From the NCBI RefSeq assembly GCF_018362975.1, contig NZ_CP074371.1, forward strand, positions 6,510,001 to 6,574,000: a DNA stretch of 64,000 nt. Reading direction: 5' to 3'. A program made the translations under genes and the position numbers. Below the pieces are notes generated by a model. It was not told the DNA's origin, ran no database searches, and saw nothing but the letters and a program-made list of their open reading frames with translations. Each line of letters begins with the position of its first letter. Positions within the stretch are counted from its first letter, which is position 1. Positions 2,558 to 63,612 of this stretch are shown piece by piece. This DNA comes from Nocardia tengchongensis. Its GTDB lineage: Bacteria; Actinomycetota; Actinomycetes; Mycobacteriales; Mycobacteriaceae.

Positions 2558-3379
2558 CTAGAACCGGGACAGGGTCTGGCACGGGGTCGGCGCCGGGATG
2601 TCGCCGCGGAAGTAGGCGGTCGGCGCGACGCCCATGAGCGAACGGAAATCCGCGCTCAGATGGGACTGGTCGTAGTAGCCGGAGGCGTGTGCCACATCCG
2701 ACCAGGGGGTGTTGCCCGCGGCGGCCAGGACCTGGCGCAGGCGGGCGATCCGGGCGTAGTGCTTGGGAGACAGGCCGATTCCGGCGGTGAACAGGTTGCG
2801 CAGCTGGCGTTCGGAGACGGCCAGGTCGGCGGCGAGGTCGCCGATCGGGGCGGTCGTGTCCATGGCGGTCACCGCCGAATTCAACAATCGGCGGTGGTCG
2901 CGGCGGACGGGGTCCTCGGTGAGCCGGTGCGGGAGTTCGGCTTCCAGGAAGGCGGTCACCTGCTCCGGGTCCAGCGCGAGCAGCGCGTCGGCGAGATCGC
3001 CCGCCGGACCGGGCAGCTCCGACAACAGCGCGACGCGATCGGTCAGCTCGGCGGCCGCGATACCCAGCAGGGGCTGCGATGCTCCGGGCGCGAGCCGGAT
3101 CCGGGTGCAGCCCGCGGGCTGTTCCGGGTGGGCGTAGGTGGCGCGGGTACGCGGGCCCAGCACCCAGGCGTCCCGACGGCCGGATTCCTCGCGGCGCAAC
3201 ACAATGGTGGTGGCCGCCTGGGGGATGTGGGTGAACGTCACCGGACCCGGCTCGACCGTGGGGATGTGGGCGATCTCGGTGATCCACGGCCGCAGCCCGG
3301 CCGGCGGGGCGATGCGGCGCTCGAGGTCCTCGGCGGACATGACGGGAGCCAGGGTTTGCGCGGTGGTCACCGAATCCAC
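2558..3379 (-). CDS. AraC-family transcriptional regulator
   Basis: 273 residues. The N-terminal two thirds is an uncharacterised sensor domain. The C-terminal third (about residues 165-265) has the two helix-turn-helix units of AraC/XylS regulators, with DLAADLAVSERQLRNLF as the first recognition unit and the family signature DVAHASGYYDQSHLSADFR in the second. It is divergent from the NmrA-type reductase gene, about 70 bp away, which makes that gene the likely target. The start is uncertain: ATG at 3379, GTG at 3370 and an internal ATG about 13 codons in are all possible, and none has a clear ribosome site. Confidence 0.9.
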   Translation of the reverse strand: MDSVTTAQTLAPVMSAEDLERRIAPPAGLRPWITEIAHIPTVEPGPVTFTHIPQAATTIVLRREESGRRDAWVLGPRTRATYAHPEQPAGCTRIRLAPGASQPLLGIAAAELTDRVALLSELPGPAGDLADALLALDPEQVTAFLEAELPHRLTEDPVRRDHRRLLNSAVTAMDTTAPIGDLAADLAVSERQLRNLFTAGIGLSPKHYARIARLRQVLAAAGNTPWSDVAHASGYYDQSHLSADFRSLMGVAPTAYFRGDIPAPTPCQTLSRF

Positions 3380-3450
3380 TCTAGGCAGCTTCCACGCCCC
3401 CGGCTGTGCCGGTTTTTCCTATCTCCGGGCCGGTGCCCGGCGGCAGGGTG

Positions 3451-4307
3451 ATGGACATGATCGTTATCACCGGTGCCACGGGCACCATCGGCAGTGAAGT
3501 CGTCCGTCTGTTGTCCGAGCGGGGCGTGAAAGTCCGTGCGGTGAGCCGGGATCCGGAGCAGGCACAGGTGCCCGACGGAGTCGAGGTGGTCCGCGGCGAT
3601 TACGCCGATACCGAATCTCTGGCCGCCGCCTTCGCCGGCGCGGAGGCCGCGTTCCTGGTCGGATTGCTCGGCCCCGACTACGTGGAGCTGGATCGCGCCC
3701 TGGTCGCCGCCGCACGCGACGCGGGAGTCCAGCGCCTGGTGAAGCTGTCCGCCATCGGCACCGGCGATCCGGAACTGGGTCGCGTCGGCACCTGGCACCT
3801 GCCCGGTGAGCAGGCGGTACAGGACAGCGGTGTAGCGTGGACGATCCTGCGGCCCAGCAGTTTCGCCTCGAACACGCGCAGCTGGATCGCCCCGATCCGG
3901 GCCGGGCAACCGGTCCCGAACATGACCGGGACCGGCGCGCAGGGTGTGATCGATCCGCGCGATGTCGCGGCCGTGGCGGCGGAAGCACTGCTGTCGGAAG
4001 AGCATTCGGGCCGGATCTACACCCTCACCGGCCCCGCGGCCCTCACCACCCACGAGCAGGCCGCCGCGCTCGCCGCCGCCCTGGACCGCCCGATCGACGT
4101 CGCCGACATCCCACTCGACGTGGCACGTGAATTCATGCTGGAGTCAGGCATGTCCGAGGAGTTCGCCGACGGTGCTCTCGCCGGTCAGGCGTTCGTGCGC
4201 GATGGCGGGAACGCCGTCGTCACCGGTGATGTCGAGCAGGTCCTCGGCCGCGCGCCCGCGCCTATGCCGACTGGGTGCGCGACCACCGCACCGCCTTCAC
4301 CGCCTGA
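3451..4307 (+). CDS. NmrA-family NAD(P)-binding reductase (frameshifted near 4258)
   Basis: An atypical short-chain dehydrogenase of the NmrA/NAD(P)H azoreductase-like group. It begins with the Rossmann signature ITGATGTIG and has a continuous sugar-epimerase-like core. As sequenced, the frame runs past its natural end into DNA antisense to the next gene. If one base is restored in the GC run at about 4256-4260, the frame continues as AYADWVRDHRTAFTA and stops at TGA 4305-4307, giving 285 residues, normal for the family. I therefore annotate the shorter end and treat the break as a one-base deletion. ATG at 3451 and 3457 are both possible starts. Probable target of the divergent AraC regulator; substrate unknown. 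Confidence 0.85.
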
Positions 4308-4352
4308 CGGCCCCGCCCCGACACGGCGGAGGAGCGTTCGAGGACCCGGCGG

Positions 4353-4826
4353 TCAGAAGTTGAGGTCGCCGATGCCGATGCTGCCGCCGCCGCGGCAACC
4401 GGGAGCATCCGGAGTCGGCTTGGGTGTGCCGGCGGGCGCGGCGGCGACGGTGACGGTCTGCGAAACCGTCCTGCCGTACTGGGTGGCGGTGATCGTGTGG
4501 GTGCCGGCGGTGGTGGGAACCCACACGGCGCCGACGCCCGAGGCGTCCATGCCGGGGAAGAAAGCCTTGAAGCAGGTTCCGTTGTCGCTGAAGGTCACCT
4601 TCGACTGCGGGGTGTTCAGCAGTGAGCCGACGATCGACGCCTGGATTCCGGCCTGCGCACCGACGACATAGCCGCCGGCGGGCGGGAAGACCTCCATGCT
4701 CAGCATGCCGTCGGCGGAGGTGACCGGAGCCGCGGACGCGACCGCCGCGCCGGCCAGCACGGCCGCCACCATCACACCCGCTGCGCCCCAGCCGATCCCA
4801 TGGCGGGACGTCGTACTCGCACTCAT
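4353..4826 (-). CDS. Small secreted protein with an Ig-like domain
   Basis: 157 residues. A Sec signal peptide covers about residues 1-33 (hydrophobic core GVMVAAVLAGAAVASA, cleavage after ASA-AP). The mature part is a short all-beta domain ending in GTHTITATQYGRTVSQTVTV, which reads like a bacterial Ig-like or fibronectin-like fold, then a Pro-rich linker and a Gly-rich tail. One Cys lies in the domain and one near the C-terminus, possibly a disulfide. The start codon is chosen because AGGAGAT lies 6-12 bp upstream; longer in-frame starts lack this. It resembles in layout the secreted protein at 16752-17321. Function unknown; an envelope or extracellular role is inferred. Confidence 0.8.
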   Translation of the reverse strand: MSASTTSRHGIGWGAAGVMVAAVLAGAAVASAAPVTSADGMLSMEVFPPAGGYVVGAQAGIQASIVGSLLNTPQSKVTFSDNGTCFKAFFPGMDASGVGAVWVPTTAGTHTITATQYGRTVSQTVTVAAAPAGTPKPTPDAPGCRGGGSIGIGDLNF

Positions 4827-59534: not shown

Positions 59535-60688
59535 ATGACCACAGTGACCTTCCGCCGCACCCCAGCCGCCGCCACCGCCACCGAGGCCGGTCCGGCGACG
59601 GCGCTGCGCGCGGGCGAGCGGGCGGGCCGGGAGCCGTTGCGGCATCTGGCCCCGAACTGGTTCGCCGTGGTCATGGGAACCGGGATCATCGGCAATGCCG
59701 CCGCCACCCTGCCGGTGCAGTTCCCGGGCTTGAAGGGCGCCGCGACCGCAGCGTGGGCACTGGCCTCGCTGATCCTGATCGTGCTGGCCGGGGCGTGGGT
59801 GCTGCATTGGCGGCGCTATCCCGAGGAGGCCCGCGGGCACGGGATGCACCCGGTGATGATGCAGTTCTACGGCGCCGCCCCGATGGCCTTGATGACCGTC
59901 GGCGCGGGCACCCTGATGCTGGGCAAGGACGTCATCGGGCTCGGTGCGGCGGTGACCGTGGACTGGGTGTTGTGGTCGGCCGGAACCGTTCTCGGGCTGG
60001 TGACCGCGGCGAGCATTCCGTATCGGATGATCACCCGCCATCGCTTCGACGCCGATTCGGCGTTCGGCGGCTGGCTGATGCCGGTGGTGCCGCCCATGGT
60101 GTCGGCGGCGCTGGGCGCGCTGCTGGTGCCGCACGCACCCGCCGGGCAGCTGCGGCTGACCATGTTCGTCGCCTGTCTGGCCATGTTCGGCCTGAGTCTG
60201 ATCGCCTCGCTGGTGACCATCACCCTGATCTGGTCGCGGCTGCTGCACCACGGTTTGCCGCCCGCCGGCATGGTCGCGACCGTGTGGCTGGTGCTGGGTC
60301 CGCTGGGCCAGTCGGTGACCGCCGCGAGCGCGCTGGCCCGTGTCGCCCCGGTGTCGTCGATGACCGCACCGCCGCCGGGATGGATGTGTTCGCCGTGCTG
60401 TTCGGCATTCCCACCTGGGGATTCGCCATGCTGTGGCTGGCGTTGGCCGTCGCGGTCACCTGGCATTCCCGCGCGTCGATGCCGTTCAACCTGACCTGGT
60501 GGGGCTTCACCTTCCCCCTGGGCTGCTGTGTCACCGGCAGCACCGCCCTCTACGGCCACACCGGCGCGGATCTGTTCGCCGTCACCGCCGTGGCCCTGTA
60601 CGCGCTGCTGGTCGGGGCCTGGCTGGTGGTCGCCTCCAAGACCGTCCGGGGCCTGGTGCTCGGCGAGTTGCTGCGCCCCGCCCGCTAG
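59535..60688 (+). CDS. TDT family (TehA-like) transporter (frameshifted near 60370)
   Basis: 384 residues with about ten membrane helices of the tellurite-resistance/dicarboxylate transporter family. The start HLAPNWFAVVMGTGIIGNAA is the family signature. The frame breaks between about 60346 and 60379; restoring one base continues into GMDVFAVLFGIPTWGFAMLW and a normal end. GGTGGAGG precedes ATG 59535. Related proteins export sulfite, malate or act as SLAC1-like anion channels. The sigma factor gene follows 115 bp downstream. Confidence 0.87.
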
Positions 60689-60727: not shown

Positions 60728-60747
60728 TGTAACCCCGCCCGCTATCT
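60728..60747 (+). promoter_or_regulatory. Shared promoter-like element upstream of the ECF sigma gene
   Basis: TGTAACCCCGCCCGCTATCT. A copy identical at 16 of 20 positions lies at 62107-62126. In both places the element begins 76 bp before the start codon of the gene it precedes (60804 and 62183). The likely meaning is a promoter recognised by the encoded sigma factor, or an operator shared by the regulon. Confidence 0.6.
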
Positions 60748-60803
60748 ACTGACAGACGTGAACACGCGTCGAAGTATTCGGTGGATGCGGGAAGCGGCGG
60801 TTC

Positions 60804-61377
60804 ATGGTGCGACGGGTCGAATCCGAGCGCCGGACACGGCCCGCCGCGAGTTCCGGCTCGGGTCGGGAGTTGCGGCTGGTGTCCGGTGACAGCTACCCCG
60901 GCTGGGAAGCGGTTGTACCGGGACAACGCCGCCTGGGTGTACGCGCTGATGTTCGGCAAGGTCGGCAACCGGCCCGACGCCGAGGATCTGACCGCCGAGG
61001 TGTTCACCGCGGCGCTCAAACCGCTGCGCATCACCGCGAGCGTCCCCGAGGTGCGGGCCTACCTGCGGGCCACGGCCCGCACCGTGCTGGCCGCGCACTG
61101 GAAGGCGCGGATGGGCCGGGAGATCACCGCCATCGAGGACGACATCCCCGACGACCCGCCCGAGGAGTTCCACGACTCCGGGGCTCAGGCCCGGGCGAAG
61201 GCGGTGCTGGCCGAACTCCCGGACCGCTACCGGCGCATCCTGGAACTGCGCTTCCTGCAAGGACTCTCGGTGCGGGAATCGGCGCAGTCACTCGGGGTGA
61301 CGGTGGCGAATGCCAAGGTGTTGCAGCATCGGGCGTTACAGATGGCGTCCCAGCTGAACGAGCGAGGTGTGCGGTGA
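60804..61377 (+). CDS. ECF-type RNA polymerase sigma factor (frameshifted near 60913)
   Basis: 190 residues when restored. Region 2 (NAAWVYALMFGKVGNRPDAE, then DLTAEVFTAALK) and region 4 (ELPDRYRRILELRFLQGLSV and RESAQSLGVTVANAKVLQHR) are typical of ECF factors. The N-terminal about 37 codons from ATG 60804 are in another frame; removing one T at 60913-60914 joins WEAV to YRDNAAW. The start is supported by the upstream element lying the same distance away as in front of the cupredoxin gene. The stop overlaps the GTG of the Rieske gene by 4 bp, so the two are translationally coupled, as sigma/anti-sigma pairs usually are. Confidence 0.88.
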
Positions 61378-62069
61378 GCGGGCGGGACGTGCGGCGGTTC
61401 GTCGACGAACTACTGGCCGGCAAGAAGTCCACGGGTTTCACCCCCGACGAGACCGAGGCCGAGGAGATGCGCACGGCCATCGAGCTGCGCGCCGCCCGGC
61501 TGGGCAGCGACGCGCCCAGCGAGGAGTTCCTGAGCGGTCTGCACCGGCGGCTGGCGGCCGAGATCGACGAGCCGGAGCCGGAATCGCCTCCGGCCCACGG
61601 TTACCGGCGCCGGAACCTGCTGATCGGCACCTCCGCCGCCGCGGCCGCCGCGACGGTCGGCGCGGTGGTGGACCGCACCCTGCTCGGGCACGGGCAGAAG
61701 GGTTCCCCGCCCGCCGCCCGGCAGACGCCGCTGTCGCCCAATACCGGAGCGTGGCTGCCGATCGCGCGGTCGGCGGACCTGCCCGAGGGCGCGACGGTGG
61801 CCTTCGATGTGGGGACGGTCAACGGATTCGTGCGCCGCGACAAGGGGAATCCGGTCGCGGTGTCGGGGGTGTGCACGCATCAGGGCTGCAAGCTGTGGCT
61901 CGACGCTCCGGCCGAGCGGCTGCGCTGCCCGTGCCACTCCACCTCGTTCTCGATCGAGGGCCAGGTGGTCACCCATCAGCTGCCGGTGGCTCCGGCGCCA
62001 CTGCCCCTGGTGCAGGTCCGCGAGAACAACGGCACCATCGAGGTTTTCGCGCCTACCGAGCCCGCCTAG
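61374..62069 (+). CDS. Membrane-anchored Rieske [2Fe-2S] protein, possible anti-sigma sensor
   Basis: 231 residues. The first about 75 residues are soluble and acidic/basic (VRRFVDELLAGKKSTGFTPD onward). One membrane segment follows Arg residues (YRRRNLLIGTSAAAAAATVG), which could be a Tat-type anchor. The outer domain is a Rieske fold with both cluster motifs: VCTHQGCKL and CPCHSTSF (Cys-x-His and Cys-x-x-His). It is translated in overlap with the sigma factor. The cytosolic head, single span and outer redox domain fit a redox-sensing anti-sigma factor; an electron-transfer subunit is the alternative. No known anti-sigma domain can be named from sequence alone. Confidence 0.85.
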   Translation: MSGRDVRRFVDELLAGKKSTGFTPDETEAEEMRTAIELRAARLGSDAPSEEFLSGLHRRLAAEIDEPEPESPPAHGYRRRNLLIGTSAAAAAATVGAVVDRTLLGHGQKGSPPAARQTPLSPNTGAWLPIARSADLPEGATVAFDVGTVNGFVRRDKGNPVAVSGVCTHQGCKLWLDAPAERLRCPCHSTSFSIEGQVVTHQLPVAPAPLPLVQVRENNGTIEVFAPTEPA

Positions 62070-62106
62070 TCGTCAACAGTGTTCGCGCACAGCGGTTTTC
62101 GTCCCG

Positions 62107-62126
62107 TGTAACCCCCTCCCCTATCT
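62107..62126 (+). promoter_or_regulatory. Second copy of the sigma-upstream element, before the cupredoxin gene
   Basis: TGTAACCCCCTCCCCTATCT, 16 of 20 positions identical to the copy at 60728-60747, again 76 bp from start of element to start codon. Confidence 0.6.
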
Positions 62127-62182
62127 GTAGATGACCGGTTCGCAACAGCGAACGGACCCATCCCGGATGGAGGACCGGACCT

Positions 62183-62677
62183 ATGAGACCCACCCGCAGC
62201 TCTCGGCGCGCAGCCGTAGCCGCCACCGTCGCCGCGGCAGCCCTGCTGACGGCGACCGCGTGCGGCTCCGGCGGCGGTGGTAAGACCGCGGATCCGGCCG
62301 CCCCCGGATTCACCTTCGCTTCCGGCACCGCCACGCCCGGCATGGTGCCGGACGGCGCGGATCCGGCCATGCCCGGGATGACCTCGGCGGCGGGCACCCC
62401 CGCCACCGGGGCGCCCGCGCCGGCCGGACCCGATGCTGTCACCATCGACAATTTCGCCTTCGGGCCCGGCTCGCTGACCGTCGCGGCCGGGACCACCGTG
62501 ACCTGGACGAACAAGGACGAGGAACCGCACACGGTGGTCGCGAACGACGGCAGCTTCCGCTCGCCGACCCTGGGCACCGGCGCCACCTACACCTTCACCT
62601 TCGCCAAGCCCGGCAGCTTCGCCTACGTCTGCTCGATTCACCCGTTCATGCACGCGACCGTGGTGGTGACCCCGTGA
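62183..62677 (+). CDS. Cupredoxin (plastocyanin-like) lipoprotein
   Basis: 164 residues. Signal peptide with lipobox LLTATAC (lipid-anchored Cys near residue 27), then a Pro/Ala/Gly/Met linker with MPGM-type repeats, then a blue-copper fold of about 90 residues. The type 1 copper ligands are His in DEEPHTVVAN and Cys, His, Met in YVCSIHPFMHA. It should carry one electron outside the cytoplasmic membrane or buffer copper. GGATGGAGG precedes ATG 62183. It follows the Rieske gene and carries a copy of the same upstream element. Confidence 0.93.
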   Translation: MRPTRSSRRAAVAATVAAAALLTATACGSGGGGKTADPAAPGFTFASGTATPGMVPDGADPAMPGMTSAAGTPATGAPAPAGPDAVTIDNFAFGPGSLTVAAGTTVTWTNKDEEPHTVVANDGSFRSPTLGTGATYTFTFAKPGSFAYVCSIHPFMHATVVVTP

Positions 62678-63612
62678 GCGGCGACGACGCGGCACGGGAC
62701 CCGCAGGGGATGACCCGCCGCCAGCTCATGCGGCACAGCGCGTGGTTCGGCGCGGCGGTGGGCCTGGCGGTGGTGGGCGGCGAGGTGGTGTCGCACGTGG
62801 CGGGTTCCGCGCTGGCGGCTCCGGCGCGGCCGACGCTGCGCTTCGCACAGGTCAGCGACAGTCACATCGGGTTCACCGGGGCCGCGAACACGAGTGTGAC
62901 CGACACCTTCTCCGAAGCGATCTCCCAGGTGAACTCGCTGGGGTATCAACCCGATTTCGTGATTCACACCGGCGATCTCACCCATCTGGCGACGGCGGAG
63001 CAGTTCGATCAGGTCAAGCAGATGATGGGCGGGTTGTCGACGCCGCACGTGTTCACCGTTCCGGGAGAACACGATTCGAGCGATGACGGCGGCTCGAGAT
63101 ACCGGTCAGTCTTCGGCAATGGAACGCACGGCGACGGCTGGTACAGCTTCGACATCGCCGGCGTGCACGTGATCGGATTGGTCAATACGCTCAATTTGAA
63201 GAACCTGGGGCATCTCGGTCAGGACCAGCTCGACTTCGTCCAGAAGGACGTGGCCGGATTGTCCAGTGACACACCGATCATCGTGTTCAGCCACATCCCG
63301 CTGTTCGCCATGTACCCCCAATGGGGCTGGGGCACAGACGATGCCACGCAGGCGCTCAGCTATCTGAAGCGGTTCTCCTCGGTCACCTGCCTCAACGGCC
63401 ATGTGCACCAGCTGTTCACGAAGACCGAGGGCAATGTCACCTTCTACAGCGGGACCACCACCGCGTACCCGCTGCCGAAGCCCGGCGACGGCCCCGCGCC
63501 CAAACCGGTGACGCTGCCCGCGGGCAAGTTGCACGCGGCACTGGGGATTCGCGAGGTGACCTACCAGAAAGGGCAACAGCAGCTCGCTATCAAAGAACAG
63601 GCGCTGAAATGA
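62674..63612 (+). CDS. Tat-exported metallophosphoesterase
   Basis: 312 residues. The Tat-like signal is TRRQLMRHSAWFGAAVGLAV. The calcineurin-like metal motifs follow: FAQVSDSHIG (Asp-x-His), VIHTGDLTH (Gly-Asp), VPGEHD (Gly-Glu/Asn-His, with Glu in place of the usual Asn), FSHIPLF and NGHVHQLF. It hydrolyses a phosphoester outside the membrane, probably with Fe/Mn. GTG start overlaps the cupredoxin stop by 4 bp, so the two are translationally coupled. Confidence 0.93.
   Translation: MSGDDAARDPQGMTRRQLMRHSAWFGAAVGLAVVGGEVVSHVAGSALAAPARPTLRFAQVSDSHIGFTGAANTSVTDTFSEAISQVNSLGYQPDFVIHTGDLTHLATAEQFDQVKQMMGGLSTPHVFTVPGEHDSSDDGGSRYRSVFGNGTHGDGWYSFDIAGVHVIGLVNTLNLKNLGHLGQDQLDFVQKDVAGLSSDTPIIVFSHIPLFAMYPQWGWGTDDATQALSYLKRFSSVTCLNGHVHQLFTKTEGNVTFYSGTTTAYPLPKPGDGPAPKPVTLPAGKLHAALGIREVTYQKGQQQLAIKEQALK

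Follow-up and report, generated by a model that had tools for sequence, protein, structure and literature searches.

A conserved pairing of an ECF sigma factor with a membrane Rieske protein in Nocardia tengchongensis and its relatives, and the compact promoter-like element that accompanies it

A 64,000-nucleotide stretch of the Nocardia tengchongensis genome (RefSeq assembly GCF_018362975.1, contig NZ_CP074371.1, positions 6,510,001 to 6,574,000 of the forward strand; hereafter the window) contains a cluster at 60728–63612 that probably encodes an extracytoplasmic function (ECF) sigma factor together with a membrane anti-sigma factor bearing an outer Rieske sensor, the pair serving a small envelope-redox regulon. 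The gene order, all on the + strand, is SLAC1/TDT transporter, element, ECF sigma, Rieske protein, element, cupredoxin lipoprotein and metallophosphoesterase, the element being a short sequence of the form TGTAACC-N7-CTATCT. The conserved pair, the element, their linkage across genomes and a predicted transcription start are results of sequence comparison. Binding of the sigma factor by the N-terminal head of the Rieske protein, recognition of the element by this sigma factor, the signal and the release step are what we infer.

Scanning 84,980 species genomes with a profile yielded 215 relatives, and the best 80 of them make up our set of named loci. The set is rich in related mycobacteria and comprises Nocardia, Mycobacterium, Mycolicibacterium, other Mycobacteriaceae, Antrihabitans, Skermania and one Pseudonocardiales metagenome-assembled genome. 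A sigma gene adjoins the Rieske gene in 79/80 loci, the sole miss (L055) ending at a contig edge, and the two genes overlap by 4 bp in 132 of 165 pairs drawn from partly redundant loci. Within 4 kb downstream, a cupredoxin gene is found in 61/80 loci and a phosphoesterase gene in 62/80. The sigma gene is present in 17 of the 18 loci that have no phosphoesterase inside 4 kb; the sequence extends over the entire 4 kb in 13 of these 18 and is shorter in the other five, with fewer than 130 bases in two, and at least L058 and L079 are simply truncated on that side. In 20 more distant loci, the sigma gene lies no more than 150 bp from the Rieske match in 17; it is further upstream on the same strand in the other three, where only the later part of the Rieske protein was matched. 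The Rieske protein occurs in 34/150 Nocardia genomes, 78/198 Mycobacterium genomes, 22/298 genomes of the order and 25/345 of the class, the E-value limit differing between these samples. The phosphoesterase occurs in 33/150 Nocardia genomes, and these are exactly the 33 in which the Rieske gene is more than a fragment. On this sequence comparison, the sigma–Rieske pair is an old module that has been kept in many families of actinobacteria.

The element was counted as the pattern TGTAACC-N7-CTATCT, with the reversed pattern and shuffled sequence as controls. The whole single-contig genome of 8,006,012 bases holds two exact matches, both in this cluster, and two further matches with one mismatch, a stringency at which the reversed control also yields two. 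In the 80 loci (653,050 bases), 60 exact forward-strand matches were found, compared to 0 reversed and 0 shuffled. With 1, 2 or 3 mismatches allowed, the element was located upstream of the sigma unit (sigma or DoxX-sigma) in 31, 40 and 72 of the 80 loci, while the reversed control gave 0, 0 and 6 and the shuffled control 0, 0 and 4. The count rises at 3 mismatches mainly through mycobacterial sigma sites ending in GATATTC or similar rather than CTATCT. Behind the Rieske gene in the 62 phosphoesterase loci, the corresponding counts were 50, 54 and 60 (reversed 0, 0 and 2; shuffled 0, 0 and 2), and 18 of the 20 distant loci contain the element at up to 2 mismatches. The sequence-only reading of the window had proposed a search of related genomes for the sigma–Rieske pair and for the element upstream of orthologous sigma and cupredoxin genes; both recur there, with 79/80 pairs and element counts above the controls.

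The element also follows the Rieske gene from genome to genome. Among 150 Nocardia genomes, the exact element is found in 30, all within the 34 Rieske genomes, and in 0/116 of the others. Among 198 Mycobacterium genomes, 49 carry the exact element, 78 the Rieske gene and 48 both, with the element in 1/120 genomes lacking Rieske; Fisher tests on this co-occurrence ignore phylogeny. In 16 Mycobacterium Rieske genomes the element lies more than 5 kb from the Rieske gene or on another contig, to be set against the 1/120 seen without Rieske. For both genera together, the exact element is present in 78/112 Rieske genomes, with 1–3 copies per carrier genome.

The genes behind the element vary. Several loci of the Mycolicibacterium type lack cupredoxin and phosphoesterase, and there it precedes a DoxX gene heading a DoxX-sigma-Rieske unit. 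Across 18 element-centred stretches, the genes behind it include those for cupredoxin, DoxX, a PPE-type protein and small secreted proteins that share a conserved pair of cysteines. The comparison suggests that the element tracks the sigma–Rieske pair and not one target: the targets swap (DoxX, small secreted proteins, a weakly haloperoxidase-like protein) while pair and element stay.

The small secreted protein of approximately 95–140 residues recurs in mycobacteria, where it is placed behind the element or close to the module (L244:9323, L245:2513, L246:3472, L251, L253, L254 and L258). It is marked by motifs resembling QDTV..LQ.QG..V..NG...PLS.C.V and TVYVD.SC, and the copies tested gave no Pfam match above cut-off. 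In two mycobacterial loci (L242 and L243) the element TGTAACCCCYGYGTCTATCT is located on another contig than the Rieske gene, just upstream of a PPE-like gene, which we take to encode a PPE family protein. At the distant loci L203 (2716–3987) and L195 (oriented 3131–4393), the element stands before a protein with a twin-arginine translocation (Tat) signal; that of L203 has sub-cut-off Pfam matches to PAP2 and vanadium chloroperoxidase, and that of L195 is similar by eye.

In the window, the candidate promoter element of the sigma–Rieske unit is located at 60728–60747 (TGTAACC 60728–60734, CTATCT 60742–60747) and that of the cupredoxin–phosphoesterase unit at 62107–62126 (TGTAACC 62107–62113, CTATCT 62121–62126). 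The two are identical at 17/20 bases on recounting, and not at 16/20 as first stated. With the first T as position 1, we compared 140 elements in the 80 loci (up to 3 mismatches) and 181 distinct copies (up to 2 mismatches); the conservation profile was built from 241 copies, reduced to 160 once near-duplicates were dropped, and positions 1–7 and 15–20 are conserved in it partly by selection. The gap from GTAACC to TAT[CT] is 8 in 212/279 pairings. Conservation spans about −27 to +5 and then ends, and none is seen near −35 (160 copies each).

An ATG falls exactly at position 27 in 40/140 elements, before cupredoxin or DoxX, though these are not 40 independent events because the loci are rich in related mycobacteria. 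Start codons at 27 amount to approximately five separate cases, namely the mycobacterial, the N. concava and the L204/L205 cupredoxin genes, DoxX, and the L193/L194 sigma genes. N. concava (L037) lacks the leader and has its cupredoxin ATG exactly at 27, the window equivalent being 76 bases off behind a Shine-Dalgarno-like site. The distant loci have ATG27 for cupredoxin (L204, L205) and an in-frame GTG27 for sigma (L193, L194). Such ATG or GTG codons at 27 across unrelated genes form the pattern of leaderless messages starting at 27. Furthermore, position 27 is a purine in 173/181 copies and position 26 a pyrimidine in 150/181. The start predicted from this comparison of copies is 26 bp beyond the element's first T and corresponds to 60754 (A) for the sigma–Rieske unit and 62133 (G) for the cupredoxin–phosphoesterase unit. 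A start at 27 would thus place TGTAACC between −26 and −20 and CTATCT between −12 and −7, which brings the two blocks 8–9 bp closer together than in known GTAAC-type ECF promoters.

On these alignments, the element has the appearance of a whole promoter with an unusual layout, its blocks lying 8–9 bp apart and its start being set by comparison between copies. The sequence-only reading had noted that the internal spacing is shorter than that of a normal −35/−10 pair, a doubt that was well placed; its suggestion that the element is only part of a promoter is less compatible with ATG27 and the purine at 27, which fit a complete promoter better. We know of no sigma-70-family promoter with boxes this close, the distance here being nearly one helical turn shorter. 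With boxes 8–9 bp apart, either region 4 would have to contact DNA or polymerase in a novel manner, or the first box would be read by a second factor. Another possibility, that housekeeping sigma A uses TATCTN as a −10 box, was considered and rejected: the mycobacterial consensus TANNNT needs T at the final position, and T is rare at position 21 (0.01 of 160 copies).

It seems unlikely that the element is a canonical ECF promoter in which TGTAAC is the −35, G-G/A-T/C at positions 24–26 is the −10, the start lies near 36 and CTATCT is an extra spacer motif. A box at 23–28, separated from TGTAAC by N16/17, was weighed as the canonical spacing and is kept as a less likely alternative. Comparable sites are documented for two actinobacterial ECF sigma factors: GTAAC-N17-18-GAT for C. 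glutamicum sigma D, with N18-20 elsewhere in the same paper (PMC11588781), and CGTAAC-N16-CGTTGA for BldN (PMC2375139). Positions 24–26 are also compatible with this arrangement, being G (.63), G (.62) or A (.21), and T/C (.77) in the 160 non-redundant copies. However, both the ATG27 of 40/140 elements and the in-frame GTG27 of sigma in L193 and L194 would then precede the transcript start, and the DoxX N-terminus read from ATG27 (L056) matches a relative that starts behind a Shine-Dalgarno-like site (L057). In M. avium-like loci, a Shine-Dalgarno site, GAAGGAGG, occupies positions 28–35 of the sigma sites and would not be transcribed whole. The purine at 27 in 173/181 copies likewise argues for the nearer start, whereas positions 35–36 are not conserved.

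We similarly consider it improbable that a separate regulator binds TGTAACC (−26 to −20) while a sigma factor reads CTATCT only and the Rieske pair merely co-occurs. Such an arrangement would be consistent with the lack of −35 conservation in the 160 copies, and 8–9 bp between blocks is hard to square with RNA polymerase geometry. Among the genes compared, it is nevertheless sigma and Rieske that accompany the element when its target or its place in the genome changes. In addition, TGTAACC is neither a palindrome nor a repeat, and GTAAC is a known ECF −35 motif (PMC2375139, PMC11588781).

The leaders that would follow from a start at 27 contain predicted hairpins. Averaged over 138 copies, the 30 bases beginning at position 27 give a more stable fold than shuffled sequence (mean z −0.71), and those beginning at position 35 do not (0.0). 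Of 104 leader-copy structures with a stem of at least 5 pairs, 87 have the first pair at positions 27–31, the fold window having been started at 27, which favours early stems. These hairpins were considered as a DNA inverted-repeat operator; an RNA leader suits the comparison better, because the hairpin sequences differ between species while the stem keeps near the same place. In the window, each leader has a six-pair stem-loop with the same AACA loop, 1 or 5 bases past the predicted start. That of the sigma–Rieske leader pairs 60755–60760 with 60765–60770, as in the fold of the same leader (L001 855), and that of the cupredoxin leader pairs 62138–62143 with 62148–62153. Stems in the leaders of relatives differ in sequence.

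The Rieske gene (61374–62069; PF00355, 1.1e-14) starts within the 4-bp overlap with the sigma gene, and the named proteins closest to its product come from Nocardia. Its product begins with a head of 66 residues (61374–61571), the proposed sigma-binding domain, for which AlphaFold2 predicts three helices (residues 4–14, 26–40 and 50–65) with moderate confidence (predicted local distance difference test, pLDDT, ~60–80). The head is present in 54 aligned relatives and was found out to the f14, f32 and f34 families. An invariant twin arginine (R79 and R80) and a hydrophobic stretch covering residues 79–100 follow as a Tat-type anchor (61608–61673). AlphaFold2 confidence is low (below 50) at residues 67–113, covering this twin-arginine and span region, and TAT_signal_seq gives weak matches in 4/54 relatives. 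The [2Fe-2S] Rieske domain comprises residues 122–231 (61737–62066), with the motif C-x-H-x15-C-x2-H, ligands C167, H169, C185 and H188, and the disulfide pair C172 and C187. Both arginines and every Rieske ligand are invariant in 54/54 relatives, and the disulfide cysteines are likewise invariant. Sequence and AlphaFold2 model together predict a layout of head, membrane span and outer sensor. The full Rieske proteins of 18/54 relatives weakly match the NCBIfam anti-sigma model NF052375 (best 1.7e-4); in the window protein this match covers residues 36–120, mostly the span. The isolated head gives few weak sequence matches (E 0.003–0.02), all to unrelated families, and a structure search with the whole Rieske model has Rieske domains among the matches listed.

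There is only a small chance that the Rieske protein is instead an exported electron carrier, partner of the cupredoxin and simply co-regulated, with the head as a tag for Tat export or assembly and the sigma factor controlled otherwise: Rieske proteins and cupredoxins are typical redox partners (as Rieske and plastocyanin in b6f), the best Rieske structure matches are electron-transfer proteins and the head matches no known anti-sigma domain, but the Rieske gene keeps its sigma gene in 17/18 loci without phosphoesterase (13 with the full 4 kb), the gene it overlaps is sigma, the head is kept out to the f14, f32 and f34 families, and a head inside with a sensor outside is the usual membrane anti-sigma layout.

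Under the anti-sigma model, the three-helix head (residues 1–66) would hold the sigma factor at the inner membrane face, the Tat-type twin-arginine span would cross the membrane and the Rieske cluster would lie outside. Oxidation, reduction or loss of the cluster, for example by copper or oxidants, would loosen the grip on sigma. The freed sigma factor would then start transcription at TGTAACC-N7-CTATCT promoters before its own operon (autoregulation) and before exported redox or envelope genes, the outputs being cupredoxin and phosphoesterase here, and DoxX or small secreted cysteine proteins elsewhere. More tentatively, the outer Rieske domain could be a redox switch that is perhaps read or reset by the induced cupredoxin, forming an electron-transfer feedback loop, in combination with a compact promoter that has TGTAACC at −26 and CTATCT at −10.

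Several findings weigh against this model. Searches of Pfam, NCBIfam and PDB sequences with the head alone matched it to no known anti-sigma family, and for the head folded by itself (pLDDT 71) no Foldseek E-value was below 3.0 and VIA Z did not exceed 4.4. Coevolution of sigma and head did not rise above noise in a shallow alignment (mean-field direct coupling analysis; 165 pairs, Meff 75): inter-protein scores are no higher than intra-protein scores, and the share of head residues is 37% among the top 160 and 30% among the top 40, versus 29% expected. Copper or redox as the signal is suggested solely by the Rieske protein, cupredoxin and DoxX occurring together. The sigma gene is not intact in this assembly. 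The block spacing lies outside known ECF promoters, in which canonical −35 and −10 boxes are approximately 15–20 bp apart and the start is ~35 bp after the first box. With regard to position 27, the GTG27 is out of frame with sigma in L196–L198. The M. avium-like sigma sites have a degenerate CTATCT (GATATTC) and T, not a purine, at position 27, followed by G at 28; most fall outside the 181-copy set by a third mismatch. No upstream element was found in 8/80 loci even at 3 mismatches. Two of these (L041 and L055) are at contig ends, but L078, L079, L085, L088, L093 and L105 are not cut by contig ends, and five of these six have a divergent sigma beside Rieske. The exact element is absent from 30/78 Mycobacterium and 4/34 Nocardia Rieske genomes, and one genome (G874) has the element without Rieske. 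There it precedes an alkyl sulfatase gene, and it may be a relic, since a gene of the same kind stands directly after Rieske in L057.

By sequence, the closest solved structure to the window sigma factor is 6dxo_A (E 5.9e-12), which we take to be sigma BldN of Streptomyces, 6dxo presumably being the BldN–RsbN complex. RsbN is a membrane protein encoded with its sigma factor and is not known to have a Rieske domain. The BldN/RsbN system resembles the present one in the sigma structure, a GTAAC-type box and three helices (predicted here). It differs in that the head has no sequence or structure match to RsbN and in that the blocks are ~8 bp closer here. 6dxo is not among the head's sequence or structure matches listed, and the absence of RsbN and class I anti-sigma domains from the structure matches listed for it excludes nothing.

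The Rieske subunits of bc1/b6f (PetC, QcrA) and the arsenite oxidase small subunit undergo Tat-type export. The window protein shares their Rieske fold, ligands and disulfide cysteines; unlike the bc1/b6f subunits it has an extra N-terminal head and a sigma neighbour, and it scores far below the family cut-offs (26.6 of 275 bits for NF050121, bc1_QcrA_actin; 37.4 of 250 for NF045928; 28.9 of 97.4 for TIGR01416). Most class I anti-sigma factors have a membrane span. Members of this class (RseA, RskA, ChrR, zinc or non-zinc; PMC7406223) are alike in having a cytosolic sigma-binding head, a C-terminal sensor and a gene beside sigma. The differences here are a ~66-residue head with three predicted helices, no recognisable class I sequence, and a Rieske sensor. 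The same paper describes a class III anti-sigma factor with three helices (PMC7406223). C. glutamicum sigma D promoters (PMC11588781) share the GTAAC box and an actinobacterial ECF sigma factor, and differ in box spacing and, as far as compared, in the genes controlled.

An ECF sigma factor with a membrane anti-sigma factor is of a known kind; the Rieske sensor and the promoter spacing appear new. A literature search found no publication that gives a Rieske protein an anti-sigma role or names this promoter, with incomplete coverage, so that absence from print is not established. If the model is true, an iron-sulfur electron-transfer domain would join the known sensors of membrane anti-sigma factors, and actinobacteria, including many environmental mycobacteria and Nocardia, would have a direct means of sensing redox or copper conditions beyond the membrane. 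The promoter would be specific enough to define a small regulon, and its compact spacing would put to the test a basic rule governing where sigma factors place RNA polymerase.

All parts of the cluster that had been described from the window's sequence alone, including both 4-bp overlaps, are present according to the window open reading frames (ORFs) and Pfam. The cupredoxin lipoprotein gene (62183–62677; PF13473 5.1e-11, PF00127 3.6e-10) has its lipobox cysteine assigned from sequence and overlaps by 4 bp the metallophosphoesterase gene (62674–63612; PF00149, 7e-11), whose product has a Tat-type signal. A spacing of 76 bp from element to start codon had been proposed for both units. This holds for the cupredoxin ATG; at the sigma gene the ATG at 60804 does lie at that distance from its element but belongs to a different frame than the main sigma ORF (60781–61377), and the spacing is not conserved among relatives.

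The sigma gene (60804–61377) runs through two frames, a change that the sequence-only reading had overlooked. Its first 37 residues are in the ATG 60804 frame and the remainder in that of ORF 60781–61377, and both pieces match one intact Nocardia protein, P0124 (86% over 37 residues and 94% over 154). Because both pieces match single intact sigma proteins of ~190 residues, the frame change can be placed inside the gene, at approximately 60905 to 60925. Intact orthologues of ~190 residues are common, including in other Nocardia. Regions 2 and 4 (PF04542 and PF08281) are above cut-off in the window ORF and in the intact orthologues L036 and L059, and a domain search gave no region 3 match in any of the three. 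The neighbouring SLAC1/TDT gene (59535–60688) also appears to shift frame, near 60370–60400, ~0.5 kb upstream of sigma. In the first ORF its Pfam match covers profile positions 1–233 out of 331; a second ORF, which overlaps it in a different frame, reaches 60688, while the downstream piece 60376–60688 alone has no Pfam match. A sequencing or assembly error and a real mutation are both possible for the sigma gene; two frame changes within ~0.6 kb hint at assembly errors.

Individual relatives depart from the common arrangement. One Nocardia genome (L156; G150:C1:5129076-5129363) has only a Rieske fragment (residues 100–197, one stop), with no exact element and no phosphoesterase match, and is probably a decayed module. 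A small membrane-like protein, without a Pfam match for the L147 copy, follows the phosphoesterase at L147:5553-6005 and L076:6119 and, oriented, at L199:6829 and L211:6918, and does not occur in the window. Four Nocardia loci (L078, L085, L088 and L105) have two sigma genes. The divergent copy (43–50% identical to the window sigma) adjoins Rieske, and is followed by an element, a second sigma gene (65–67%) without its own Rieske, another element, cupredoxin and phosphoesterase.

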